Source: a virus. Taken from it: a stretch of DNA of 28,979 nucleotides. The notes beneath the pieces are model-generated. The model made no database searches and was not told the DNA's origin. It saw only the letters and a program-made list of their open reading frames with translations. How positions within the stretch are numbered: position 1 is the stretch's first letter; each line of letters starts with the position of its first letter. The position numbers and the translations under genes were made by a program. Below are positions 6,074 to 20,789 of this stretch, in pieces. The DNA lies in the IMG/VR virus record IMGVR_UViG_3300025120_000363, positions 1-28,979 of that record; one strand, 5' to 3'.

Positions 6074-6460
6074 ATGGATAAAGAAAAACGTCGCGAATAC
6101 AATAAAAAATATTACGAGGCTAATAAAGAAAAGTGGAGCGAATACAATAAAAAATACCGCGAAGCTAATAAAGAAAAGATTAGCGAACATAAGAAAAAAT
6201 ATTACGAGGCTAATAAAGAAAAATGTCGCGAATACAATAAAAAATACCACGAAGCTAATAAAGAAAAGTGGGACGAATACAATAAAAAATATTACGAAGC
6301 TAATAAAGAAAAGATTAGCGAACATAGGAAAAAATATTACGAAGCTAATAAAGAAAAAAATAAAGAAAGACGTAACGAATACGCTAAAAAATATTACGAA
6401 GCTAATAAAGAAAAATGTCGCGAATACTCTAAAAAATATTACAAAACTAAAAGAAAAAAT
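6074..6460 (+). repeat. 45-bp tandem repeat, about 8 units, with 135-bp higher-order period
   Basis: The monomer has the core TAATAAAGAAAA and encodes the 15-residue units of the repeat protein. Units 1-3 and 4-6 match each other in order (last residues W, I, C, then W, I, N), showing that a three-unit block was duplicated as a whole. The array spans nearly the whole gene. Confidence 0.85.
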
Positions 6461-6466
6461 GATTAA
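6074..6466 (+). CDS. Lys/Glu/Tyr-rich tandem-repeat protein, 130 aa
   Basis: The protein consists of about eight 15-residue units of the form x-EYNKKYYEANKEK-x, charged and probably helical. Units alternate in a W-I-C order at their last residue, giving a three-unit higher-order period; one insertion (KERR) breaks the seventh unit. AAAGGAG lies seven bases before the ATG, so translation is well supported. It sits between primase and UvrD helicase and overlaps the helicase start by eight bases. Similar YYEANKEK tracts occur, as I recall, next to HNH or GIY-YIG nuclease domains in phages and large DNA viruses, but no nuclease domain is present here. It may be a nucleic-acid-binding helical rod or a remnant of such a nuclease. 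Base composition is much more AT-rich than its neighbours. Confidence 0.7.
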   Translation: MDKEKRREYNKKYYEANKEKWSEYNKKYREANKEKISEHKKKYYEANKEKCREYNKKYHEANKEKWDEYNKKYYEANKEKISEHRKKYYEANKEKNKERRNEYAKKYYEANKEKCREYSKKYYKTKRKND

Positions 6467-7981: not shown

Positions 7982-9907
7982 ATGCAAGAAGATTTATTTA
8001 ACGAAGTAACGTGGACTCCGCCGGCGGAGTTGCCAAATTTGTCTGGTGAAAAAATCATCGCCATAGATTTAGAAACAAAGGACCCTAATTTAATTAGCCG
8101 TGGCCCAGGGTGGGCTAGAGATGATGGAAGAGTGATTGGTATCGCAGTAGCTGCTGAGGGATGGAAGGCATACCTGCCGATTGCCCACGAAGGCGGCGGT
8201 AACATGGCAAAGAAAACCGTACTAAAGTGGATGCAAGACCAGTTGAACCACGGCATGTCTGTAGTTTTTCATAACGCTCAGTATGACTTAGGGTGGATGA
8301 TGACTGAAGGGCTCACAGTTAAAGGTAAGATTTTAGACACCATGATAGCCGCACCACTACTTGACGAGAACCGGTTTAGTTACAGTTTGAACGCACTTGG
8401 AGCAACGTATTTAGGCGAACGAAAGAGCGAGGAAGAGTTACGAAGAGCCGCGCACCAGCACGGCGTAGATGCAAAAGCTGAGATGTGGAAGCTTCCGGCT
8501 GCAAGGGTTGCCGGGTATGCTGAAAAAGATGCAGAGCTGACGCTCAAACTATGGCATGTGCTACACCCTAAGTTGATAGCTGAAGACTGTGAGAAAATAC
8601 TAGAGCTAGAAACAGCGCTTCTTCCTATCATATTTGAAATGCGCCGTAAGGGTATTCGAGTAGACTTAGAAAAGGCGGAGAAGACGAAGAAAGACCTCCA
8701 GGCTAGAGAGAACAAACTACTGCGAGAAGTTAAGAAAGAAACAGGTGTAGACATTGAGCCATGGAACGCAATTAGCTTATCAAAAGCCTTCGACAGCTTA
8801 AAGCTAACCTACGAGAGAACAGAGAAAAGTGGAGCTCCAAGCTTCACCAAGCACTTTCTTAAATCACACGCTCACCCAGTTGCTAAGAAGATACTAGAGA
8901 TCAGAGAGTACAACAAAGCCAACACTACGTTTATTGACACCATACTAGGTCATCAACACAACGGACGTATCCATTGCCAGTTTAACCAACTGCGTTCAGA
9001 TGAGGGCGGCACAGTGTCAGGCAGGTTTAGCTCATCGCACCCTAATCTACAGCAGGTTCCTGCACGACACCCTGAAATAAAGACCATGATCCGTGGTCTA
9101 TTCTTGCCGGAAGAAGGTTGCCAGTGGGGTAGCTTTGATTACAGCGCCCAAGAACCACGGTGGCTGATGCATTTTGCATCGTTGACACCAGACACTCGCG
9201 ACCACCCAAAGGTTAAAGAGATTGTTGCTCAGTATCAAAAGGACGATTTAGACTTTCACCAGATGATAGCTGATTTGGCTGGGGTAGAACGGTCTCACGC
9301 CAAGACAATTAACCTGGGGATTATGTACGGAATGGGGCTTGGTAAACTTGCCTCTGTGTTAGGCGACATACCCTTTGAAGAAGCCAAAGCTTTGCGTAAG
9401 GATTATGATGAAAAAGTACCCTTTATCAGGGACTTAGCAGCAGCGGTAATGCGCGCGGCATCGCAGAAGGCTCAGATTAGAACAATGATGGGCCGCAAGT
9501 GTCGCTTTCCAATGAGAGAGCAGCGCTCCTACAGCCGGCTAAACAAGCCTATCCACTTTGAAAAGCTCGAAGAGCAGTGGCAAGAAATATTAGATACACC
9601 CATGGACGAGCGGCCAGATAAATGGGGCACACTAGAACCGTCCAGGTATCGTGTTGCGTTTACTTTTAAAGCTTTAAATCGGCTGATACAGGCTTGCAGC
9701 GCAGACCAAACTAAAGTTGCCATGCTTCAATGCTACGAAGCCGGATACACACCCATGCTGACAGTGCATGACGAGCTGTGTTTTTCTATTGAAAACGAAC
9801 CAAGCGTTAAGGAGATAGTAGATATTATGGAAAATTGTGTGCCAGAGATGAAAATACCATCAAAAGTAGACTACGGATTATCAAAAAACTGGGGGTTAGC
9901 TAAGTAA
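7982..9907 (+). CDS. polA: Family A DNA polymerase with 3'-5' proofreading exonuclease (Leu at 762-equivalent), 641 aa
   Basis: The N-terminal 3'-5' exonuclease shows Exo I IAIDLETK (D29, E31), Exo II VVFHNAQYD and Exo III YAEKDAELT. The polymerase shows motif A FDYSAQEPR (D386), motif B RSHAKTINLGIMYGMG (K441, L445, Y449) and motif C VHDE (H596, D597, E598). No 5'-nuclease domain precedes it, as usual for phage PolA. The residue equivalent to E. coli F762 is leucine (codon 9314-9316), the type I recall as common among marine viral PolA and proposed to mark slower or temperate-like replication. The ATG follows the UvrD stop by two bases with no clear ribosome-binding site, so coupling is likely. 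It is the replicative polymerase working with the primase, SSB and helicase upstream. Confidence 0.93.
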   Translation: MQEDLFNEVTWTPPAELPNLSGEKIIAIDLETKDPNLISRGPGWARDDGRVIGIAVAAEGWKAYLPIAHEGGGNMAKKTVLKWMQDQLNHGMSVVFHNAQYDLGWMMTEGLTVKGKILDTMIAAPLLDENRFSYSLNALGATYLGERKSEEELRRAAHQHGVDAKAEMWKLPAARVAGYAEKDAELTLKLWHVLHPKLIAEDCEKILELETALLPIIFEMRRKGIRVDLEKAEKTKKDLQARENKLLREVKKETGVDIEPWNAISLSKAFDSLKLTYERTEKSGAPSFTKHFLKSHAHPVAKKILEIREYNKANTTFIDTILGHQHNGRIHCQFNQLRSDEGGTVSGRFSSSHPNLQQVPARHPEIKTMIRGLFLPEEGCQWGSFDYSAQEPRWLMHFASLTPDTRDHPKVKEIVAQYQKDDLDFHQMIADLAGVERSHAKTINLGIMYGMGLGKLASVLGDIPFEEAKALRKDYDEKVPFIRDLAAAVMRAASQKAQIRTMMGRKCRFPMREQRSYSRLNKPIHFEKLEEQWQEILDTPMDERPDKWGTLEPSRYRVAFTFKALNRLIQACSADQTKVAMLQCYEAGYTPMLTVHDELCFSIENEPSVKEIVDIMENCVPEMKIPSKVDYGLSKNWGLAK

Positions 9908-10638
9908 TGTCATATTTAATGAGTAACATTCCGCACTTTAAATGCTGGGTCAGGAAAGAATTCACACACAACCACGAAAAATACCAAGGAGAATTTGTTC
10001 ACGCTATGGCTATTGCTGTAGCGACCGTTCCTGACAGGTGTTTAAGCTTTCATCTTGTGTTTACCGGAGCAGAAAGCGATATAGACGATACGGAAAACAT
10101 CCATGGAGGAGCGATGTGGGCTCGTATGCCAATTACTGCGTTAGTTGCCGATACGCCCTTAAACGAATGGCCAGAACAACTACCCGTACCCTTAGCTCAA
10201 CCCTGGGACTGTAGCTCCCACCACCATGCGGTTTTTCGCCTAGAAAGGGTGTCATCTAGCCCGTGGTTGTGTAAGATAGATGGTGAGTTTCATACTGGAC
10301 GGTATATGTTTACCGTTGAGTATACTGAGAGCGATATTGCGGATGACCCAGCGCAACACAAACAGAGTCATGTTATTGAGTTGACAGACGCTGGAAGGTA
10401 CACTGGTAACATCGTGGCATTGCCAAACAACAGGGTAAGAGCAACAAGCCCTGCATTATGGGAAACAGGTGATGGACCACCTGACTTTAAACCAAGTCAA
10501 TGGGCTCATAGCGCGGAATGTGATGACAGCTATATGGACCCTAGTATAACATTTGACAACTTATATGCAGGAGAGCAAGAAGATGATGAAGAAGAAAGGT
10601 TACTCGAAGGGCGGGATGAAGAAGAAGGGCTACGCTAA
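9907..10638 (+). CDS. Conserved marine phage protein of unknown function, 243 aa, with overprinted acidic tail
   Basis: The protein matches a family I recall from marine phage genomes by stretches such as HFKCWVRKEFTHNHEKY, GGAMWARMPITALV, QPWDCSSHHHAVF, SPWLCKIDGEF, DDPAQHKQSHVIEL and NNRVRATSPALWETG. These are highly conserved and rich in Trp, Cys and His, suggesting a compact folded protein, but no function is known to me. It starts at ATG 9907 overlapping the polymerase stop (TAATG). The last 19 residues (EDDEEERLLEGRDEEEGLR) are strongly acidic and are read from the same DNA as the basic start of the next gene in another frame, so this tail probably arose by extension past an older stop. 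Confidence 0.8.
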   Translation: MSYLMSNIPHFKCWVRKEFTHNHEKYQGEFVHAMAIAVATVPDRCLSFHLVFTGAESDIDDTENIHGGAMWARMPITALVADTPLNEWPEQLPVPLAQPWDCSSHHHAVFRLERVSSSPWLCKIDGEFHTGRYMFTVEYTESDIADDPAQHKQSHVIELTDAGRYTGNIVALPNNRVRATSPALWETGDGPPDFKPSQWAHSAECDDSYMDPSITFDNLYAGEQEDDEEERLLEGRDEEEGLR

Positions 10639-11011
10639 AGGCGGGATGCCCATGAACCCTGAAACTGGTACGCCAACATTTGTTGGTGACGGCAAAGGTA
10701 AAATGTCTGCTGGAGGCTCTGCGGTTTCAAAAAGTTTTTCTAAAACAATTTCTAAACTATTAGGTGAATCTGGAAAAACTATTTCTGATTCTGATAGAAC
10801 TAAAGTTGCAAAAATTCTTGGCGACGAGTCTGGAAAAACTATTTCTGACTCTGATAGAGCTAGATTAAAAACAATAATGAAGCGCAAAGGCGGTGGCTCT
10901 GCGATGAAGAAGAAAGGTTACTCGAAGGGCGGTGCGATGAAACGCAAAGGCGGCGGTTCTGCGCTAAACAAGAAGGGCTACGCTAAGGGCGGAGCTACTC
11001 GCATATTCTAG
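10583..11011 (+). CDS. Small basic repeat protein with KKKGY[SA]KGG motifs and two 'ESGKTISD' modules, 142 aa
   Basis: I place the start at 10583 because AGGAG (10569-10573) lies nine bases upstream; an in-frame ATG at 10553 has no such site. The N-terminus (KKKGYSKGG, KKKGYAKGG) and C-terminus (KKKGYSKGGAMKRKGGGSA, NKKGYAKGG) are Lys/Gly repeats. The middle (about residues 60-106) has two 20-residue copies of a module ESGKTISDSDR-x-[KR]. Proteins with KKKGYAKGG ends are common in marine phages with no known role. The middle module also occurs in the large late virion protein at 16168-18108, nearly identical even in DNA. Possible roles are nucleic-acid binding or a virion-associated partner of that protein. 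The first 56 bases overlap the end of the previous gene. Confidence 0.72.
   Translation: MMKKKGYSKGGMKKKGYAKGGMPMNPETGTPTFVGDGKGKMSAGGSAVSKSFSKTISKLLGESGKTISDSDRTKVAKILGDESGKTISDSDRARLKTIMKRKGGGSAMKKKGYSKGGAMKRKGGGSALNKKGYAKGGATRIF
10766..10859 (+). repeat. Two 34-base copies of the 'SGKTISD' module, 60-base period
   Basis: The copies at 10766-10799 and 10826-10859 begin GA[AG]TCTGGAAAAACTAT and differ at only a few bases. Together with flanks they form 60-base (20-residue) units. A third copy lies inverted at 16452-16485 in a different gene. Confidence 0.85.
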
Positions 11012-11314
11012 ATGGCTAGAGAAAGAAAAAAACCTATCCCTAAAACTACCAAAGGGAAAGGCGCCAATTACCGCCCCACTAAATCTGGGGCGGGGATGAC
11101 GAAAAAAGGTGTTAAGGCTTACCGCAGTAAAAATCCTGGCAGTAAGCTAAAGACAGCGGTTACTGGAAAAGTTAAAGCAGGAAGTAAAGCCGCCAAACGC
11201 CGTAAGTCATATTGCGCTAGGTCTTTAGGTCAACTGAAAAGAAGTTCGGCTAAAACAAGAAACGATCCTAATTCTAGGATAAGACAAGCTCGAAGAAGAT
11301 GGAGATGCTACTAA
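11012..11314 (+). CDS. Small basic conserved phage protein (DUF6321-like), 100 aa
   Basis: The opening MARERKKPIPKTTKGKGANY, then TKSGAGMTKKGVKAYR, SKAAKRRKSYCARS and an RQARRRWRC end correspond to a conserved small basic phage protein family that I recall as DUF6321. About a third of the residues are Lys or Arg, with a Cys near position 68 and another at the end. It begins immediately after the stop of the preceding basic protein and ends overlapping the next start (TAATG), so the four basic proteins form one translation-coupled cassette. Its function is unknown; nucleic-acid binding is the obvious inference from charge. Confidence 0.75.
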   Translation: MARERKKPIPKTTKGKGANYRPTKSGAGMTKKGVKAYRSKNPGSKLKTAVTGKVKAGSKAAKRRKSYCARSLGQLKRSSAKTRNDPNSRIRQARRRWRCY

Positions 11315-11529
11315 TGGCCACTAAAGATGCGTGTTATTCAAAAGTTAAAGCTCGATACAAAGTGTTTCCATCAGCATACGCTTCCGGGGCAATTGCTAAA
11401 TGCAGGAAAGTTGGAGCCAGTAACTGGGGCAACAAAACAAAACGTGCAGAAGGCGGAATAACTGTTACAACCAACGGATGTGGTTCAGTGATGTCTAGGC
11501 ACGGTGGACGGAAAGTCAAAATATACTAA
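11314..11529 (+). CDS. Small basic Cys-containing conserved phage protein, 71 aa
   Basis: I start at ATG 11314, which overlaps the previous stop as TAATG; an upstream in-frame ATG at 11299 lies inside the previous gene. The segment KDACYSKVKARYKVFPSAYA followed by SGAIAKCRKVGASNWG is a compact module found, as I recall, in phage proteins and in large eukaryotic DNA viruses, often fused or repeated. The remainder (TTNGCGSVMSRHGGRKVKIY) is short and basic. The spaced cysteines could bind a metal, but no standard finger spacing is seen. It is the third member of the basic-protein cassette and overlaps the fourth by one base. Confidence 0.72.
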   Translation: MATKDACYSKVKARYKVFPSAYASGAIAKCRKVGASNWGNKTKRAEGGITVTTNGCGSVMSRHGGRKVKIY

Positions 11530-11822
11530 TGGCTGTTCGTAAAACAAAAAAAGGCGCTGATCTTAAACGCTGGTTTAACGAAGAATGGGTTGACGTAAGA
11601 ACAGGTAAGCCCTGCGGAAGAAAGAAAGGTGAGAAAAGAGGAACGCCTTATTGCAGACCAAGCAAACGTGTTTCTAAGAAGACACCTAAAACATCTACAG
11701 AGCTTACTGCGGCAGAAAAGAAGTCTAGAATTGCTCAGAAAAAACGATTAGGGCAGCCACCTGGCAAGCCTAAAAGAGTTGCATCTGTTAAAAGAAAAAC
11801 AGTTAGGAAACGAACAGCCTAG
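11529..11822 (+). CDS. Small basic conserved phage protein (DUF5872-like), 97 aa
   Basis: The segment KKGADLKRWFNEEWVDVRTG followed by KPCGRKKGEKRGTPYCRPS matches a small family shared by phages and giant viruses; I recall the label DUF5872 but could not check it. Cysteines in PCGRKKG and PYCRP may coordinate a metal. The C-terminal half is a Lys/Arg-rich tail (KTSTELTAAEKKSRIAQ and a KRKTVRKRTA end). It is the last rightward gene; its stop is only five bases from the stop of the convergent nuclease gene, with no terminator hairpin between them. The function is unknown; the charge suggests DNA or RNA binding. Confidence 0.75.
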   Translation: MAVRKTKKGADLKRWFNEEWVDVRTGKPCGRKKGEKRGTPYCRPSKRVSKKTPKTSTELTAAEKKSRIAQKKRLGQPPGKPKRVASVKRKTVRKRTA

Positions 11823-11827
11823 CGACG

Positions 11828-12202
11828 TTAGTAAGCGCCCCAAATTTTTACTTTAGTACCGCCCCAATATTCTACGGCAAGGCCAGCGTCTATAAGTTTT
11901 GCGTTAATGCTATTGCCGTTAAAATCCCACAACACACCCAGTATTCTTCCGTACTTACCACGCCCTTGAGATTCTAAAACAAAACCGTCATACGTCAGTT
12001 CTTTTAATAGCTCTTTGGCTTCTAGCCCAAGTTTCTTTTCAGCAAGGTCCCTGGTCCGTGATTCAGGGGTATCTATTCCAACAAGCCTAACTCTTTGCTT
12101 TGCAAGAACAATCTTGAACCCTAGATCTATGTTTACGTCAACGGTGTCTCCGTCAACAACTCTGTCTAACGTGCATTTGTAAACGAATGGTTTAACGTCC
12201 AT
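11828..12202 (-). CDS. Staphylococcal-type (thermonuclease family) nuclease, 124 aa
   Basis: The SNase fold is clear: VVDGDTVDV, then RVRLVGIDTPESR, then GKYGRILG, and INAKLIDAGLAVEYWGG. Residues equivalent to the S. aureus catalytic set are all present (D19, R39, D44, T45, E47, R86 in the numbering used here). No signal peptide is seen, so it acts in the cytoplasm or virion rather than being exported. The frame is open up to an ATG at 12253, but I prefer 12202, with GAGG ten bases upstream and an 11-base overlap with the lysozyme 3' end. It is the last gene of the late operon. Likely roles are degrading host DNA or processing DNA at the end of infection. Confidence 0.87.
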   Translation of the reverse strand: MDVKPFVYKCTLDRVVDGDTVDVNIDLGFKIVLAKQRVRLVGIDTPESRTRDLAEKKLGLEAKELLKELTYDGFVLESQGRGKYGRILGVLWDFNGNSINAKLIDAGLAVEYWGGTKVKIWGAY

Positions 12203-12683
12203 GTAGGTCTGTCCTCGGTATGTTCCAATTGCCTTCTGGTGCAGGTGCAGCAAGCATTCTTTTTACTAATCTTTCTGCCCGGTTAGGGACCTGTATGTAC
12301 CATCGTGAGTCAACCATAGCATCTGCCGCGCCAACCCAATTAAAATCTTTTACGCATTTCTGCATGTCTTTAAACAAAGACAATCGAGTTCTTCCCAGGT
12401 TAAACATCATGTTAGCAATAATTAGCTGCACTTCCTCCGGGTACAAAGAAAAGTCTTCGTACAACACAAGACAATCTGCAACAGTTGTCTTAATGTCTTT
12501 TTCAAAGCACTCGCTAACTCTGTCTTCTGTTACAGGAGTGCCTTGCTTTAAATTGTACTCAAGGTCGCTGGGCGTAACTAAATGACCAATACCAAATGTT
12601 TTTTTGCCTAGATGGTCTAAGTATACCTCATAAACGCAGCCTTCATCTTCAGCCAGTTCTTTTTTAAGTTGGTCTATGTTCAT
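12192..12683 (-). CDS. Endolysin, T4-type lysozyme (glycoside hydrolase family 24), 163 aa
   Basis: This is a muramidase that cleaves peptidoglycan to release phage. The catalytic triad of T4 lysozyme (Glu11, Asp20, Thr26) is matched with exact spacing by E14 (AEDEG), D23 (YLDHLG) and T29 (KTFGIGHL). The C-terminal helical lobe shows NMMFNLGRTRL and DAMVDSRWYIQVPNRAERL, also typical of this family. Its length equals T4 lysozyme. No signal or anchor sequence is seen, so it should need a holin for access to the wall. The start overlaps the stop of the 1160-residue virion gene as ATGA. Confidence 0.92.
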   Translation of the reverse strand: MNIDQLKKELAEDEGCVYEVYLDHLGKKTFGIGHLVTPSDLEYNLKQGTPVTEDRVSECFEKDIKTTVADCLVLYEDFSLYPEEVQLIIANMMFNLGRTRLSLFKDMQKCVKDFNWVGAADAMVDSRWYIQVPNRAERLVKRMLAAPAPEGNWNIPRTDLHGR

Positions 12684-15600
12684 CCCATTAGCCCTGCTAT
12701 GCCCATTCGAGCTCGTTCTCGTTCAACTTCGCTTGCGTTCATAGATAGTTTTTTTGGATAAGGTACAGGACCTAACGAAGGATTTTCAGGAGTTGGCGGT
12801 TTGTTAAACATGTTTGGGTCTACCTTTATGCGTTCTTTAATTTGGTCTAAAGATAAACCGGAAGGAACATTAACATTTTTAACTTCTTCTCGCAGCATCA
12901 TTCCTTGAGGGCTTTCCCTGTCTTGGCCAACAGCCGTTGTTCCTGTAACCCTCAAAATCTCTCTGTTTCCAATATCTACAAACTTGTTTAGAAAATAGCC
13001 AAACTCATTACCCGGTGTTTTTTGAGCAAATTCTTCTGGAACCAAGCCATCTTTAATAGCTTGGTTGTATAACTTAGATCTCATTTGCGGAGAAAGAAGA
13101 ATTTTTAAAAAATTAGGGTATCTAAAAAGTCTTGCTAACACGCCGGAAAGAGCTAAACCACCAGCCGCTGTTGCAGCAGTAGCAAAATGACCAGCTATTG
13201 CAAGACCTATACCTCCCGCAGCGCCTAATCTTGCAATTGAACCGGCTAAACCAACGCCTGGCTTGTCTACATTAGATAAGCGAATAGCATTAGAAGCTAA
13301 TTTTTTTAAGCCGTTAAAAGTTTCTTTTCCTAATACTTTTTCAAGAACGCCTTTTTGATTATTTTTATCTAAAACATTAAGAAAGTTTTTACCCCAAGCT
13401 CCGGTTTGCACAGCATCTTGCCCGGCTGATGTAAATAAGGTGTCAAAATCAGCGCCTTTAAGAATACTTCGCAAAGTAGCTTCTTTTAGGCCGCCTTCTT
13501 TAACAAGCTCATCTCTGCCCACTGTTTTTAATAATTGCTCATAGCTTTTAGGGTCTTTTAACACTGCTTGAACAATATCATCGGCTGAGGATATTTCACC
13601 TTTAGCAATAACGGAAGCAAGCGCTGTTCGGCTAGCTTCAGCAGCTTCATCTACAGTATTTTTAATTGCTTCTGCTTGGAGCCTAAGACCATCGTCGCCT
13701 ATACTTCCAATTTGTCGAGAAAAATCATCAGCACTTTTTGCGCTAAGAAGATAAGCGTCTCCAAGAGAATCCCTAAGAATTTTAGCGTTAGTAGTTCCAA
13801 AAAGAGTATCTTGAACCCCTGTTCCCAACCCTTTAAAAGCACTGTTTAACGCTACTCCGTTGATAGTAGTAGCATTTGCAGGTCCTACGGTGGATTCACG
13901 AATTGCATTTTGTAGCCACTGGCGAGATAAATCTGTGCGTATAGCATCGCTTAAAACGGCAGGGTTAGCCCCAGACCTTGATTGCTGGACAAGAGTATTT
14001 AAACCTTTAATATAAGGGTCAACCATTGTTTGCCAATAAGAATCTTCTTTAACCATCCCCTGCACAAAATTAGGAAGCACTCCAGCAACTTCATCTAAAC
14101 CAGCACTTTTTAAAACTTGGTTACCGGCCAAAACATCTCCAGCTTCAAACAAAGCCTTAGCTTCAAGTATAGTTGCGTCTGCTCCAGGTTGAGCCAATCT
14201 AGCTATACTGTTTTCGCTAGGAGTAACAGCGTTTAAATACGTTTTTAAATTGGCTACATTACCGCCTTTAATTATCGTGCTAAGTTCGTCTAAATTCCTG
14301 CCACCTGTTTTAGCCTTAACATTTTTTAATATCATGTTGACAGCAGTATTGTTAAATTTTTCTTGGCCTTCACCATAAAAAGTATTAGCGCGCTTCCACA
14401 AAGTTAAGCCTTGTTTTACCTCGTCTAATTCTCCAGGACCTAAATACTCAACACGGTATTTAGGTTTAACACCTTCCCCAGCCGCCTTAGTCTGAACAAC
14501 CCTGTATCCCTGACTAATTATTTCCTGTGTTTCGACAAGTTTATTTTGCAAAACAGACCCTAACGATTTTATTACTTTACCAACTTCAGCGGCGCCTTGG
14601 CTAGCTATTACCCCTGGGTCTTTCGCCGCTAATTCAAGAACAGATTTTAAGTTTTGCAAAGTTGATATATCAGCGCCACCTTCTGTTTGAATTCTTTTAA
14701 CGGCGCTAAATATAGAACTTTCCGTTACAGGAATGCCTAAGCTAATAAATTTTTCTTCAAGAAATTTAATTTGATCTACAACAGGTGTTAAATCAAACTT
14801 AACACCGCTGGTTTTTAAAAGAGTGTCTGCATTTTTATACAAGGCATTAGAACTTGCTTGGAATAAAGCCGCAGAAACTTGAAGACCTTCGGAAAATTCT
14901 GTTGGCAATCCTTTTATAGGGCTAAAGTTTTTTTCTAAAGCTTTTAGCTGACCTGTAATAACGTCATCCAAGTTTCTTCTAGCAATTTTAAAAGCTTCTT
15001 CTGGATTCACTAATTTAGCATTTAACGTAGAGGCCAAAGCTTTTGCTTCAGCGTCAATTGCTGCGCTTCCGGCTTCTTGGGTAATTCTTCCTGCGCCCAC
15101 ATCTTCTAATATGTTTCTAATAAACTGAGAGTTTCTTGCTCCTGGAAAAGTTGGAGGCAGTACGTTTTCGGATAATGCTTGCGCTGTTCCAAGAATAGAC
15201 TTTCCACTAGCAGCCGTTACTGTTGGGCTCGCTCCAGCAATAACTAACCCTCTCATATTGGATATAGCTTCTTCCTGAGCTAATTGCTTGCCTAATTTAT
15301 CAGGGCTAGGGTACAACGTATTTTTAATTGCTTGTAATCCGGTGTCTGTTTCTCTACTTGCGGCAACACTTGCGGCAAGTTCTTCAGCTCTGGCCTGACT
15401 ATACTTTGGCCCCGGCCCTTTAATTAATCTTGCAACACCGCCAACAATAGCTCTTCCAACACCTTCTCCAAGAGCGTTAATAACTCCTTCTTTGGCAATT
15501 TTACCCATAACATCGCCAAGAGACTGCTTGTTAAGCCCTTGAAAATAATCTATTGCCTCATCGCCGGCAGAAAAAGCAGCCGCAGTTGCGCCAACTCCTG

Positions 15601-16162
15601 CCATACCAATTAAAATAGGAGCGCCGGCCAAAATTACACCAGCGGTAATGGCTCCCGCTAAAGGGGCTCCAGACTCTCCGGCAAAATCAAAAAAATCTCT
15701 GTCAGTAAAACCCGGCTTATCTGCGTACACTAGTCCTTGATCCGGAAGCCCTAGTTCCATTCTCACGTTTGGGTCTACTTTTGCGGCATCGATAACAAAA
15801 GTATCCTCAGCAGTTCTTTCAAATGTCCCTGGCCCAAGTTTTTGGGTCAGCAAGCCCATCTTTTCTTCGTCTGTTTCCATTCGACCAAGAGCAAACCTAA
15901 AAGATTTATCTTCTATCTCTTGCGTTATTTCTGGTAGGGCAACTTGAGGCTGCTCTTCTGGAGTCACCGGTTCTGGAGTCACCGGTTCTGTGTTAACACC
16001 CTCTCCAAAAGTTTCTTGGCTAGAAGGCGCTTCTACTGGAGATTCTTGCAAAAACAGCTCAGGGTTTTTTTCACGAAGCATTGGTATGATAGTTTTAATT
16101 TCATCGTCTGTTTTATCTTGAAAGTCAATAATTTTTCCAGAAGGAAACCGTATTTGATTCAT
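12680..16162 (-). CDS. Large virion/ejection-type protein with two hydrophobic glycine-rich segments, 1160 aa
   Basis: The N-terminus (IRFPSGKIIDFQDKTDDEIK) fits a short motif found at the start of internal virion proteins in marine phages. A Pro/Glu linker with a duplicated PVTPE follows (about residues 59-70). Hydrophobic Gly/Ala-rich stretches lie at about 165-199 and 970-1012, long enough to cross a membrane, separated by some 770 mostly helical residues. The end (LKILLSPQMRSKLY and a short Pro-rich tail) also looks familiar from these phages. Size, helicity, hydrophobic segments and position before the lysozyme suggest a protein ejected with DNA or an internal core protein, like T7 gp15/gp16 in role but not recognisably homologous. 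No lytic transglycosylase motif was found. Confidence 0.7.
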   Translation of the reverse strand: MNQIRFPSGKIIDFQDKTDDEIKTIIPMLREKNPELFLQESPVEAPSSQETFGEGVNTEPVTPEPVTPEEQPQVALPEITQEIEDKSFRFALGRMETDEEKMGLLTQKLGPGTFERTAEDTFVIDAAKVDPNVRMELGLPDQGLVYADKPGFTDRDFFDFAGESGAPLAGAITAGVILAGAPILIGMAGVGATAAAFSAGDEAIDYFQGLNKQSLGDVMGKIAKEGVINALGEGVGRAIVGGVARLIKGPGPKYSQARAEELAASVAASRETDTGLQAIKNTLYPSPDKLGKQLAQEEAISNMRGLVIAGASPTVTAASGKSILGTAQALSENVLPPTFPGARNSQFIRNILEDVGAGRITQEAGSAAIDAEAKALASTLNAKLVNPEEAFKIARRNLDDVITGQLKALEKNFSPIKGLPTEFSEGLQVSAALFQASSNALYKNADTLLKTSGVKFDLTPVVDQIKFLEEKFISLGIPVTESSIFSAVKRIQTEGGADISTLQNLKSVLELAAKDPGVIASQGAAEVGKVIKSLGSVLQNKLVETQEIISQGYRVVQTKAAGEGVKPKYRVEYLGPGELDEVKQGLTLWKRANTFYGEGQEKFNNTAVNMILKNVKAKTGGRNLDELSTIIKGGNVANLKTYLNAVTPSENSIARLAQPGADATILEAKALFEAGDVLAGNQVLKSAGLDEVAGVLPNFVQGMVKEDSYWQTMVDPYIKGLNTLVQQSRSGANPAVLSDAIRTDLSRQWLQNAIRESTVGPANATTINGVALNSAFKGLGTGVQDTLFGTTNAKILRDSLGDAYLLSAKSADDFSRQIGSIGDDGLRLQAEAIKNTVDEAAEASRTALASVIAKGEISSADDIVQAVLKDPKSYEQLLKTVGRDELVKEGGLKEATLRSILKGADFDTLFTSAGQDAVQTGAWGKNFLNVLDKNNQKGVLEKVLGKETFNGLKKLASNAIRLSNVDKPGVGLAGSIARLGAAGGIGLAIAGHFATAATAAGGLALSGVLARLFRYPNFLKILLSPQMRSKLYNQAIKDGLVPEEFAQKTPGNEFGYFLNKFVDIGNREILRVTGTTAVGQDRESPQGMMLREEVKNVNVPSGLSLDQIKERIKVDPNMFNKPPTPENPSLGPVPYPKKLSMNASEVERERARMGIAGLMG
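15956..15990. repeat. 15-bp tandem duplication in the 1160-aa gene
   Basis: GAGTCACCGGTTCTG occurs twice in tandem at 15961-15975 and 15976-15990, with the preceding TTCTG extending the match. It encodes the doubled PVTPE in the proline-rich linker. Confidence 0.9.
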
Positions 16163-16167
16163 AATTA

Positions 16168-18108
16168 TTACAACCCGTAAGAGCTAATAGTTGGAATATC
16201 ATTTTCTTCAAAAACATTTGAGTCGCGAACTGTTGGATTTTGTAACCCACCAGATTCAAAAGTTAACCCAACACGCATTAATGTTGAAGACATTTGGCTA
16301 TTTAACGCCATTTGTTGATCAATTAACGCTTGGTTTAAAGAGTTTTTAACTTCTTGAAATTTTTCGGGACTTGCAAGAAAAATCTCCATTAGTACATCCC
16401 CTCCAAAAGCGCTATCACCTTTTTTATAGCCAATAATCTCGGCTATTCTGTCTCTATCAGCATCAGATATAGTTTTTCCAGATTCTTTTAATAAAATAGG
16501 CGCTAATTCAGCGGCTAAAATTCTCATTTCTATAGCTGCTAACCCTGCTTTGCCGCTTGGTATTCCTGTAAACCCTTCAACAAGTTTTTTTGGAGCGCCT
16601 AACGTAATAAGCCGTTGTTGAATTTCTCCTATTGATGCGCGAGGTCCAGTAATATCCTCATTTTTAAATGTATTAACTTTATCAAGAAGTCTTTTTAGCC
16701 TTCGATTTCCTAAAGTAACGCTGTCATAAATTCCAAACAATGATTTCGCTTGGTTTTTATCCATTGATGATCCCCCATCACCAGTTTTTTGCACTCGTAT
16801 ATCTATCGAACTACTGTTTCCAAAATCTTTAAAAGGTTCTATCGTTTTTATAACTGTGTTTTTAGTGTCAGCTTTTGTTGGAAAGCCAGTTAATAATCCC
16901 GCAAGTTTATCTGAATTTTTAATCTCAACAACTTTCACGCCTTCGTTACTTAAAGAGGTAGCTTGTTTAGCGCTGAGGTATCTAGGGCTAAGACTCATAT
17001 CAATTTTTTCGTAATTTTTGTCCCAATCTGAAGTGCTTCCCAAAAGAAGATAGCTACTTGTTATGCTGCCTTGTTTGGCGTCTTCTTTACTTATCTCTCT
17101 ATTGGCATCGTCAGTTTTAAATTTTTGATTAAGAGCTAAAGTCGTAACAGCATCTTTTCTTTTTTGTTTAGCTTTAAACTGGCTGTCATGGTAAGCGGTT
17201 ATTTTTGGAAGACCTTCCAAGACACCTTTTTTAAACCCTTTATTCATAATGCTCGCACCTAATTCAGCGAGCAGCAAGCCTTCTGTAGTTGGGTTTTTTT
17301 CAAGCGGATCAAAAGCTTTTCCAATTTTTTTCTTTAACGCGTCTATATCAACATCACTTATACTTCCGGTCTTAACATTAGCCAAAAAATCTTCAAGAGA
17401 TCCTTTTTCTTTTAAGTTGTCTTCTGACGGTGTAAGATCTACCGCCGCTGGAGCCGCTGGCGTAAGATCTACCGCCGCAGGATCTACCGCCGCAGGATCT
17501 ACCGCCGCAGAATCGTCTGTTGACGGAAACAACGCATTTGTAACTTGGTCCAGAGGTGTACCACGCTTATCTGCTCTTTGATCTGCTCTAACAGCTCTCT
17601 CCCTAGCCGCTATGCTGCTCAAGCCCTCTGTTCCGGATAACAGCTCCCTAATGTCTTCTCCGGGCTTTAAGTCATACATAGATCTAGCTCTTGGGTCTCT
17701 TGCTAATCTATCCTTAGCAGTTGCTGACGGAGATGTATAACGCAAGTCGTCATCTGTCATGTCATCAAAGGGTCTTGGAAGATCAGTATTTGATACAAAA
17801 CTTGGATCTAAGCTTAAATTGCGAGATGGAGGCATAACAGTCGGAGCGGGTTCTTTATTAAGTGAGCCAGGGTCGTAAAAGTCTAACGGGTCAAATGCTG
17901 GTGTCTGTTCCTGCATTGATTCGGGGCTATAAAGTGCTTGCGGGGCAATTCCTAACTGAAAATTAGCGCCACCATTAGCAAACCTAGCAGCTTCCATCAA
18001 AGGCTGAGAAGAAGCTAGTATGCCGCCAGTATTTCTACCTTGCTCAGGCTCTAAAAGACCCCCTTGGCTAAAAAGCTTTCGCGATAGAACATCTTTAATT
18101 GCGCTCAT
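16168..18108 (-). CDS. Virion-associated protein of unknown function carrying a 'SGKTISDADR' module, 646 aa
   Basis: I do not recognise a characterised family. The N-terminal 200 residues are low-complexity and Pro/Asp-rich with a SRKLFSQGG opening common in such phage proteins, followed by tandem AAVD[PL] repeats (about residues 200-225). The rest is mixed helical. Near residue 545 it carries LLKESGKTISDADRDRIAEIIG, the module also found twice in the small basic protein at 10583-11011. Gene order (between two other large late proteins, starts overlapping stops as TAATG) points to a structural or internal virion protein. No membrane segment or enzyme motif is seen. Confidence 0.65.
   Translation of the reverse strand: MSAIKDVLSRKLFSQGGLLEPEQGRNTGGILASSQPLMEAARFANGGANFQLGIAPQALYSPESMQEQTPAFDPLDFYDPGSLNKEPAPTVMPPSRNLSLDPSFVSNTDLPRPFDDMTDDDLRYTSPSATAKDRLARDPRARSMYDLKPGEDIRELLSGTEGLSSIAARERAVRADQRADKRGTPLDQVTNALFPSTDDSAAVDPAAVDPAAVDLTPAAPAAVDLTPSEDNLKEKGSLEDFLANVKTGSISDVDIDALKKKIGKAFDPLEKNPTTEGLLLAELGASIMNKGFKKGVLEGLPKITAYHDSQFKAKQKRKDAVTTLALNQKFKTDDANREISKEDAKQGSITSSYLLLGSTSDWDKNYEKIDMSLSPRYLSAKQATSLSNEGVKVVEIKNSDKLAGLLTGFPTKADTKNTVIKTIEPFKDFGNSSSIDIRVQKTGDGGSSMDKNQAKSLFGIYDSVTLGNRRLKRLLDKVNTFKNEDITGPRASIGEIQQRLITLGAPKKLVEGFTGIPSGKAGLAAIEMRILAAELAPILLKESGKTISDADRDRIAEIIGYKKGDSAFGGDVLMEIFLASPEKFQEVKNSLNQALIDQQMALNSQMSSTLMRVGLTFESGGLQNPTVRDSNVFEENDIPTISSYGL
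16452..16485 (-). repeat. Third copy of the 34-base 'SGKTISD' module, inverted relative to 10766-10859
   Basis: Read on the minus strand, this segment matches 10766-10799 at 31 of 34 positions by eye. It encodes ESGKTISDADR within the 646-residue virion protein. Confidence 0.85.
17436..17510. repeat. 15-bp imperfect tandem repeat coding for AAVD units
   Basis: GATCTACCGCCGC recurs at 17436, 17466, 17481 and 17496, with spacings of 30, 15 and 15 bases. It encodes AAVDP/AAVDL repeats in the N-terminal linker of the 646-residue protein. Confidence 0.85.
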
Positions 18109-19157
18109 TATGAGTTTCCTTGCCTTTGCAACCCAAAAGGATCTCCAAACGCTTTATTTAGTCCAAACGCACCAATCCCTGCACCGATAGCTTGAGATAA
18201 GCCGCTAGGCGATGGAGCTGTGTTAACACCAAAGCTAGAAGTTGAAGGACTAATGGACGGTTTAAAAATATCCGACATGAAGCTTAATCGTTGGTAAGGC
18301 TCGTAAGCTCTTTGGAAAGCGTTCTTGCTTGTCGCATCTAATTCTCTTTGCGCCTGTGTCTGGCCTAACGAACCTAACTGAGACTGCAATTGAGCCTGTT
18401 GCCCAAGCATGTTTTGCCCGGAAACACCAAGATTGGCTTGCTGAGAACCTAAGCCGGCTGTGCTTTGAGCATACTGGTTGGCAAACTGTCCTTGGCCTTG
18501 ACCCAACTGACCTAACAAAGTACCTAACCCTTGCTGGCGTTTCTGTTGCGCCTCAAAAGCATTTTGAGCGTTAGCTAAAGAAGAAGCGTAACCTTGTTGG
18601 CGAAGTTGGCCAGCGGTTCGAGCTTGCGTGTCTAACATATTACGGCCTAACTCGGTTTGCATAATACCTGAACGACTGCCACCAAAAGCCCCTGCGTTAG
18701 CAGCTTGTGCATTCAAAGCCTGTTGCTGTAAAGCGCCTTGGCGATTAATGTCGGATAATGTCTGCTGGACCACTTGATCTTCATACGGGTTTTGATAGGC
18801 TGCTGCGCTAGTAGGGTCAAACATTTGATCGCTGCCGGCAGCTTGAGCTCTAGCTTGGTCAAAATAACCTGGGACCGCTTGTCCTTGGCCTCTTAAATAA
18901 TCAATGCCTTGCCCTGTTGTATCAGCAGCTTGCTGTAAATAAGGCATGTACTGGCCTATACCAGCTCCTGTTTGCATTGCTTGTTGTGTAAGAGGGTCTA
19001 AGCCAGCTACTTGCGTGTCTAGCTTACCAAAAGTTTGCTCGCTAAAAGGTGTTTGCCCTCTAGCAAAAGCTTGCTCTAGTAAATCTCTTTGAAATTCTTC
19101 AAGAAAGGGTGCTTGACGAATTACTTCGCTTGTTGTTCCTGTTGCTTCATTAGCCAT
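18108..19157 (-). CDS. Gln/Ala-rich virion-associated protein (marine phage family), 349 aa
   Basis: The core contains NPYEDQVVQQTLSDINRQG, LNAQAANAGAFGGSRSGIMQ, and long Gln/Ala/Gly-rich helices with repeats of GLG, GQG and AQ. The 'NPYEDQVV ... AGAFGGSR' signature is, as I recall, common in marine phage genomes between other large late genes and is generally labelled as structural or hypothetical. The extended low-complexity helical region would suit an internal core or ejection protein. AGGAG lies six bases before the ATG, and the stop overlaps the next start. There is no signal peptide or catalytic motif. Confidence 0.75.
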   Translation of the reverse strand: MANEATGTTSEVIRQAPFLEEFQRDLLEQAFARGQTPFSEQTFGKLDTQVAGLDPLTQQAMQTGAGIGQYMPYLQQAADTTGQGIDYLRGQGQAVPGYFDQARAQAAGSDQMFDPTSAAAYQNPYEDQVVQQTLSDINRQGALQQQALNAQAANAGAFGGSRSGIMQTELGRNMLDTQARTAGQLRQQGYASSLANAQNAFEAQQKRQQGLGTLLGQLGQGQGQFANQYAQSTAGLGSQQANLGVSGQNMLGQQAQLQSQLGSLGQTQAQRELDATSKNAFQRAYEPYQRLSFMSDIFKPSISPSTSSFGVNTAPSPSGLSQAIGAGIGAFGLNKAFGDPFGLQRQGNS

Positions 19158-19166
19158 CGTATGCTC

Positions 19167-20789
19167 CTAAGCCATTCCGCGTTCAAAACGAGACATCATG
19201 TCGTACATTCTAGCAGCACCTAAGTCTCTATCACCATTGCCAGCATTTCTAACCGCTTCCGCTGTCATTACAAATTCTCCATCAGAAAGTTTAGCATCTA
19301 TACTGTCCGAGGTCCCTGTTCCAGGGCCCACTATCTCACCACCATCAGCAGCCGTCCTTGTTGGGCCATACTTCCTTGTCAGATACGCTTGAGCTTGCTC
19401 TAAAGTAATGCCTGTAGACGCTGCAAGCTGTTCCGCTGTCAAAGTACTGTATATACCCGCATCTCTTCGAGCTTGATAATATTCATTTGACCCTTGAGGA
19501 AGACTAGCCGATTCTACATAAGAAGAATACTGAGGGTCACCTATCCTTCTAGCCTCCGCCACATCTTCAGCAGATAAAGTTCTCTTTTCTGGGTCAAGTG
19601 CTTCTGATGCAATTGATGCTGTAATTCCGGGCGCAAAAACATCTTTTTTAAATGGGTTAAATGCTTCTTTCAGTGCTTCAATTCCCGCAGGACGGTTTTC
19701 TACTGGAGTATTTTGTCTAGCAAGAACGTCAGCAGGTGTTACGTTAGCCAAAAGATCTTCTGGTACTTGTGCAGGGTATGCTCCTTTTTCTATAGCAAAT
19801 TCAGGAGGAGCATCATATTGACGGCCCCTACCAACAAACTCAGGAAGACCTCTCATGCTTGTAAGTTCTCTACCCGTAAACTCAGGAAGACCTCTCATAC
19901 TTGTAAGTTCTCCAGTAAACTCAGGAAGACCTCTCATACTTGTAAGTTCTCTGTTTGCGAACTCAGGAAGATCTCTCATGCTTGTAAGCTCCTTACTTGC
20001 AAGTTCTCTGCTTGCAAACTCAGGAAGACCTCTCATACTTGTAAGCTCCTTACTTGCAAGTTCAGGAAGAGCTTCCATGCTTGTAAGTTCAGGTGTGTTA
20101 GATAACATTTTTCTAGTTACAGCGTCATTACGATATTCAGGTAAAGTAGGAAGGGCTTCGTATCGACCGCCCCTATCAACAAACTCAGGAAGATCTCTCA
20201 TGCTTTCTAAGTTTTCTTCTTTCCCACCTAAAGCTTGCATTATCCCTGTAGCAGGACCTTTTTTAAAAGCATCAATGGGGTTTTCAGTAACATCATCAAA
20301 AAATGATTTTACAAACCCTTTGTTATCTTTATCTTTAAGAGCGGCCAATGCCGATGAAGTTACACCTGTAACCCCACCAATCAAAGCAGATTTTTTAAGG
20401 CTTTTACCGCTGGCCAAAGAACCTAGCCCAGCGCCTATCCCTGTACCAATGGACGACCCCGGCATAAATCTGTTGGCAACAATAGCGCCAATAGCCGGAA
20501 GCGAGCGTTTGGTAGCTTTCCAAAGTTTTTTCCAGAAAAACTCAGGCTGGCCAGTAATTGGATTTAAAGAGTTTAAAGCACTGCCCACCACGTAACGGTT
20601 AGGGTTTTCGATGCCCATCATTTGCATCTGGTGAAAGAGCTGTTGTTTTAAACCGGGGTTAGCATCAAGTATTTCACCTGGGATAACTGTCTCGCCCTCT
20701 GCGGCATGAACCATGTAGCTATCGCCATAACGACCCAAACTGGCTAATCCTTCCGCTTCTTTTTTGAAAATGGGCATCATTTGATTCAT
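19167..20789 (-). CDS. Virion-associated protein with conserved ends and a central tandem-repeat region, 540 aa
   Basis: The N-terminal part (GDSYMVHAAEGETVIPGEIL, NPNRYVVGSALNSLNPITGQ, PEFFWKKLWK) and the C-terminal part (GPGTGTSDSIDAKLSDGEF, VMTAEAVRNAGNGD, RMYDMMSRFERGMA) are both strongly conserved in marine phages as I recall them. Between them a Gly-rich hydrophobic stretch (IGTGIGAGLGSLASGK and following) is followed by about seven units of ELTSMRGLPEF and a UBA-like short segment (LTAEQLAASTGITLEQAQAY). Late position and neighbours suggest an internal virion or ejection protein. An extended -10 promoter and AGGA site precede the ATG. The repeat block looks like a variable insertion between fixed ends. 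Confidence 0.75.
   Translation of the reverse strand: MNQMMPIFKKEAEGLASLGRYGDSYMVHAAEGETVIPGEILDANPGLKQQLFHQMQMMGIENPNRYVVGSALNSLNPITGQPEFFWKKLWKATKRSLPAIGAIVANRFMPGSSIGTGIGAGLGSLASGKSLKKSALIGGVTGVTSSALAALKDKDNKGFVKSFFDDVTENPIDAFKKGPATGIMQALGGKEENLESMRDLPEFVDRGGRYEALPTLPEYRNDAVTRKMLSNTPELTSMEALPELASKELTSMRGLPEFASRELASKELTSMRDLPEFANRELTSMRGLPEFTGELTSMRGLPEFTGRELTSMRGLPEFVGRGRQYDAPPEFAIEKGAYPAQVPEDLLANVTPADVLARQNTPVENRPAGIEALKEAFNPFKKDVFAPGITASIASEALDPEKRTLSAEDVAEARRIGDPQYSSYVESASLPQGSNEYYQARRDAGIYSTLTAEQLAASTGITLEQAQAYLTRKYGPTRTAADGGEIVGPGTGTSDSIDAKLSDGEFVMTAEAVRNAGNGDRDLGAARMYDMMSRFERGMA
19835..20105. repeat. 39-42-bp degenerate tandem repeats coding for ELTSMRGLPEF units
   Basis: Six recognisable units of 13-19 codons (ELTSM-[RE]-[GDA]-LPE-[FL] plus a variable linker) lie in tandem inside the 540-residue gene; one more diverged copy (SMRDLPEFV) lies at about 20175-20210. 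Unit lengths vary by whole codons, and one unit carries an extra ELASK, suggesting slippage or unequal exchange. Confidence 0.85.

Follow-up and report, generated by a model that had tools for sequence, protein, structure and literature searches.

We found that a short peptide module is carried both by a large ejection-type protein, here called LARGE, and by small, mostly basic proteins of uncultured phages, and that the two proteins of a genome carry the same type of module wherever both could be typed. The DNA analysed (the window) is a stretch of 28,979 nucleotides from the IMG/VR virus record IMGVR_UViG_3300025120_000363. At a probability of roughly one half, we propose that the module is a docking hairpin and that the small proteins may serve as type-matched adaptors that load or hold ejection proteins in the phage head.

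The shared module in the window

Three 34-base copies of the module were located and their coordinates rechecked in the window, two on the plus strand (10766-10799 and 10826-10859) and one on the minus strand (16452-16485). The first plus-strand copy is identical to the minus-strand copy at 31 of 34 bases and its sister at 30 of 34, as a sequence-only reading of the window had reported, and dinucleotide shuffles gave 0.00 expected matches of this kind. All three copies are in frame and encode ESGKTISD[SA]DR. The wider protein similarity noted in the same reading (LL.ESGKTISD.DR...A.I.G, common to the small protein and LARGE) is also correct. Features are collected in Table 1.

Table 1. Features of the window bearing on the shared module.
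Feature	Coordinates	Strand	Basis
Small basic KKGYSKGG-repeat protein, two type A modules, tail GGATRIF	10565..11011	+	ORF; start from relatives beginning MQE
Predicted helical module cassette (helix-loop-helix-loop-helix), two ESGKTISDSDR copies	10730..10888	+	AlphaFold and relatives
Type A module copy 1, ESGKTISDSDR	10766..10798	+	Sequence match
Type A module copy 2, ESGKTISDSDR	10826..10858	+	Sequence match
Small basic neighbours: DUF6321, DACYxKV protein ending GRKVKIY, DUF5872	11012..11822	+	Relatives in G032 head operon
DNA-transfer protein, exchanged with LARGE in G003; candidate partner	12680..16162	-	
LARGE, 646-aa middle ejection-type protein	16168..18108	-	ORF; synteny with G005, G026, G032 and phage DSL-LC04
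Predicted LARGE hairpin holding the module, helices 519-538 and 548-557	16435..16551	-	AlphaFold, low confidence
LARGE type A module, ESGKTISDADR	16453..16485	-	Sequence match
ejA, DNA ejection protein-like (PHROG 4287), not exchanged in G003	18108..19157	-	

Identity at the DNA level ends where the conserved peptide ends, and the flanks are unrelated. When codons were drawn at random from the usage of the window, at least 31 of 33 identical bases arose with a probability of 1e-4 to 3e-5 for copy 1, and the identity of copy 2 had a probability of about 0.0035. Codon usage accounts for part, not all, of the DNA identity in the window. This excess, together with a 23-base identical run between the small gene and LARGE of another contig (G101, P 0.002) and the optional nature of the cassette (see below), is what would be expected had the cassette been copied from LARGE by recombination and kept passively without any function, with identity reflecting recency. 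We consider such passive copying unlikely, since the peptides also match in contigs G003, G005, G032 and G063 without the DNA clearly standing out, since identity stops at the peptide between unrelated flanks, and since the module occurs in many lineages, where passive copies would not sustain it. The recent copying event proposed from the sequence alone is possible in the window and G101 and is not needed in general, and DNA-level copying may be a route by which some modules (window, G101) are renewed. The ESGKTISD peptide recurs in many uncultured phage contigs, so it is not special to the two window genes.

The inverted arrangement of copies alike at 31 of 34 bases had also raised the idea that they recombine and flip the 10.8-16.5 kb segment between them. 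We regard this as extremely improbable, because the copies are short and explained by protein coding and because a stretch of the closely related contig G003 (IMGVR_UViG_3300031519_000269) that takes in both loci is collinear with the window. No reads or contigs with the segment inverted were seen, and an invertible DNA segment, which would occur in both orientations, was rejected.

In the middle of the small protein, AlphaFold predicted at low confidence helices at residues 50-61, 69-79 and 89-102 joined by the ESGKT loops. Judging by its relatives, the ATG at 10565 (MQESKKMMKKKGYSKGG...) is the more likely start of the gene, which would then overlap the preceding gene. The cassette is optional. 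Its module is absent from L003-L005, L008, L015, L016 and L023, and the closest relatives (L003, L005, L008) have the same protein frame without it. Other relatives have different inserts at this position, and in G003 the cassette is replaced. The gene adjoins that of a DNA polymerase within the replication operon rather than lying in a head operon. A set formed by an MSYLMSN protein, DUF6321, the DACYxKV protein and DUF5872 closes this replication operon (window 9907-11822); in G032 the same small basic set belongs to the head operon, and in G063 this is partly the case (compared at L150:3887-5677 and L385:15840-16640). Elsewhere in the window (6074-6466) we observed a 130-aa protein built of 15-residue repeats (YNKKYYEANKEKxxE); the opposite strand has a long hydrophobic open frame there.

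The type A module corresponds to the loop and second helix of the hairpin predicted at low confidence in LARGE. No other part of the protein is nearly as conserved as the module segment among 23 diverse homologues of roughly 600-980 aa, which elsewhere are 15-47% identical to the window LARGE. Searches of LARGE and the 23 homologues against Pfam, PHROG and PDB returned no informative sequence match, and fold searches with the low-confidence LARGE model gave nothing meaningful. The genes follow a P22-like order (stabilization, TMP-like, ejA of PHROG 4287, LARGE, DNA transfer). The window, G005, G026 and G032 share the order ejA, LARGE, DNA transfer, and the LARGE position is also found in the cultured phage DSL-LC04; because this order is kept across contigs, LARGE was placed by position as a middle ejection-type protein. 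Its earlier description as a large virion protein is reasonable given this synteny with ejection genes, and LARGE is presumably located in the virion. The N-terminus of LARGE (window 16168-18108) contains RK[LM]F-x-x-GG, and [FYM]-x-x-GG was observed in TerL ends and small proteins of related contigs as a second recurring short motif. The TMP-like protein (window 19167-20789) contains tandem ELTSMRGLPEF repeats and varies in length, with 540 aa in the window, 407 in G003 and 390 in L173.

Distribution of the module and the small head-operon proteins

Using an alignment of the tandem copies as query, we found 158 confirmed module stretches in the IMG/VR virus collection and a single stretch in genomes of bacteria and archaea totalling 257 Gb. 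The carriers are uncultured, mostly marine short-tailed phages known from metagenomic fragments. Queried with the modules and several LARGE proteins, a set of 50,697 phage records gave no real match, only weak ones at chance level. The cultured phages HTVC023P and DSL-LC04 have genes at the LARGE position that contain no A module, and neither has a small protein matching the hairpin of its own LARGE-position gene. The small protein matched no informative family in Pfam, PHROGs or PDB, and a search of literature text with the motif strings found no paper. The module is undescribed in the Pfam, PHROG and PDB families, the cultured phages of the collection and the literature searched.

After three truncated LARGE fragments were removed, 45 distinct small proteins bearing the module remained. 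For forty of these, a portal, TerL, scaffold or capsid gene lies on the same strand no more than 1.5 kb away; among background ORFs this holds for 1328 of 4256 (31%). The others lie within about 3.2 kb of such head genes except in the window and G003, where the contigs lack all four kinds of gene. The proteins are mostly basic and contain one to four hairpin copies, often in tandem. Nearly all end in a glycine-rich tail. A few glycine-rich basic forms recur at the C-terminus, among them NDGGIAKKTRVF, GCVMAGRGGKYKGMK and GSIQVSGSNFSGIY, and neighbouring small head genes that lack the module encode these tails as well. With or without the module, the shared tail looks like a C-terminal head-targeting or binding peptide. 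Runs of tiny consecutive head-operon proteins with unrelated bodies and similar tails (NDGGIAKNTRVF, GGAIKGKNFRGSF, RGGTFKGTF) were also observed, at L146:9534-10436, L394:5242-7055, L153:5328-6621 and L150:3301-6344.

A small protein that imitates LARGE could also act as an assembly chaperone or decoy, masking the binding site of LARGE or competing with it. This would keep assembly from starting too early or would stop a superinfecting phage from using its ejection proteins, and the small protein would not have to be present in the virion. Type-matched mimicry would be needed for this as well, tandem copies would raise avidity, and the window gene is indeed in a replication operon. Nearly all the other small proteins are encoded in the head operon and have the shared tails, which points to structural co-assembly, and a chaperone or decoy seems to us improbable.

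Module types within genomes and between close relatives

Two types of module were distinguished, type A (ESGKTISDxDR) and type B (TQSANSISNRDV), and both occur in LARGE and in small proteins. In G003, LARGE contains ...LGSTQSANSISNRDVELL... and the small protein ...LSSTQSRNTISNRDVAFL...; the latter also keeps a degenerate A-like second copy. Dozens of other contigs have the type B hairpin in LARGE, where it is hyperconserved. It was also found in other small proteins with the tail (L381, G063) and, in G073, in a basic protein of 425 aa encoded in the head operon. Matches to the A profile were absent from the 43 contigs typed B, G003 alone having both.

The sequence-only reading had asked whether the module pairs co-vary within genomes, and they do: the types of the small protein and LARGE agree in 9 of the 9 genomes with both typed, six pairing A with A (window, G005, G026, G032, G101, G105) and three B with B (G003, G063, G073), with p=6e-4 when partners were permuted among these nine genomes. 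Type A considered by itself shows no significant match (p=0.12 best, 0.064 mean). An unusual LARGE variant, LNEGNRTISDADRAR, occurs in G101 and recurs without change in the small protein of that contig. Type matching is not strict, as L006 (A-type LARGE) and L009/L237 (B-type LARGE) have similar degenerate cassettes (DSKSVSKEDKKKVKK; SAEEDKKKVKK). Nor is the pairing of small protein and LARGE obligatory, because the copy in the small protein is optional. Five contigs of 31-56 kb had LARGE only. Some relatives (L003-L005, L008, L015, L016) lack the peptide in the small protein, so the pattern that the earlier reading had named as refuting its interpretation, the peptide in one gene only, is seen in part. 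In L404:5856-6440 the module slot of the orthologous small protein holds an EF-hand-like DMNKDGKLTKVDF, which is possibly a third type, and this contig ends inside LARGE. In L026:195-878, DLTGDGKVTKKDI was observed just ahead of the A modules.

Two exchanges between near-isogenic phages add to this co-variation. G003 is 93-98% identical to the window over their shared DNA, save at two places separated by conserved sequence: the cassette of the small protein (breakpoints at 10723 and about 10876-10988 in window coordinates) and a block with most of LARGE and the DNA-transfer gene. The exchanged LARGE and the exchanged small cassette are both of type B and so match each other. In the second case, L183 and G063 are nearly the same in their head genes (TerL 99%, portal 98% and scaffold 97% identical, neighbours 94-100%), and only one protein among them stands out. 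It is a small orthologous protein, conserved in frame and tail, and its module slot is filled by two A modules in L183 but by a single B module in G063. The LARGE gene of L183 lies outside the contig.

The nine genomes with both proteins typed are few, and the types partly cluster on trees, as would be seen if A and B simply marked phage lineages and agreed by descent. We find this quite unlikely, for the backbones of window/G003 and of L183/G063 are near-identical and carry opposite types in the small protein, and the ejA tree requires 7 type changes, with window (A) and G003 (B), and likewise L173 (A) and L237 (B), as close sisters. The DNA-transfer tree needs 4 changes and places these phages together by type. 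The joint change between the window and G003 and the difference between these trees suggest that the partner setting the type is most likely LARGE itself or the DNA-transfer protein. Portal, scaffold and coat were rejected for this role, being 97-100% identical across the type swap between L183 and G063.

A further possibility is that the module is merely a common helix cap, a stable loop-helix used by many phage proteins with no functional link between them. The module is indeed a predicted loop and N-capped helix in both proteins, and it is widespread. A generic cap would not stay invariant over about 11 residues, however, nor would it switch type along with LARGE in a 97% identical phage or be confined to LARGE and head-operon small proteins, and we think this explanation rather unlikely.

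A possible docking role in phage heads

The suggestion of a shared docking peptide or mimic survives the co-variation check, and we infer physical binding, the identity of the partner, location in the virion and a loading role. In the mechanism we propose, the 34-base match would encode a short alpha-hairpin docking module, which in the C-terminal part of LARGE would engage, within the ejection complex, either other copies of LARGE or the DNA-transfer protein encoded alongside. The small proteins would mimic LARGE and bind whatever LARGE binds, while their constant part (the KGG repeats and the glycine-rich C-terminal tail) would anchor them to the head or to DNA. As adaptors they would load or hold ejection proteins in the assembling head, and where an ejection cassette is exchanged the adaptor module would have to follow.

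The P22-type ejection proteins (gp7, gp20, gp16) are the nearest known set, with a P22-like order in which an ejection-type gene is grouped with LARGE and a DNA-transfer gene. P22 ejection proteins must enter the procapsid, and the scaffold column has been proposed as their docking site, with loading through scaffold contacts (PMC12005531), which makes loading by an adaptor plausible. The phages studied here differ in that LARGE has no informative PHROG, Pfam or PDB family match and in that small proteins copying the hairpin of the cargo in matched types are undescribed in the literature consulted. Ejection proteins are mosaic and are known to swap parts (PMC8954989).

The capsid-targeting sequences of T4 internal head proteins are similar in being a short peptide common to several proteins and thought active inside the head. 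T4 capsid-targeting signals are N-terminal and are cut by the prohead protease, whereas the module is internal in both proteins, often in tandem and predicted to be helical; in function, the closer analogue would be the glycine-rich tail at the C-terminus of the small proteins. EF-hand and dockerin-like loops (DxNxDGxIxxxD) likewise place a loop before an N-capped helix, and the slot in L404 noted above holds such a sequence. They were rejected as an identity for the module, as L-x-E-S-G-K-T-I-S-D-A-D has no acidic ligands at loop positions 1 and 5. A P-loop (Walker A, GxxxxGK[ST] after a strand) was rejected too; the spacing in GESGKT is two residues short, and a helix-loop-helix is predicted.

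The selection and placement of internal virion proteins in the heads of short-tailed phages are poorly understood, and ejection genes of mosaic make-up must stay functional after recombination. The comparisons suggest a previously unrecognised way to dock or load proteins inside phage heads. We tentatively extend this to a modular, type-specific recognition code in which adaptor hairpins are interchangeable and an unlinked adaptor must switch with a new ejection cassette while portal, scaffold and capsid stay constant. If true, the type-matched peptide would be a candidate recognition element common to an ejection-type protein and a small head protein encoded apart from it. It would also assign a role to a large class of small phage proteins that lack annotation, and might be used as a tag for bringing cargo into phage heads.
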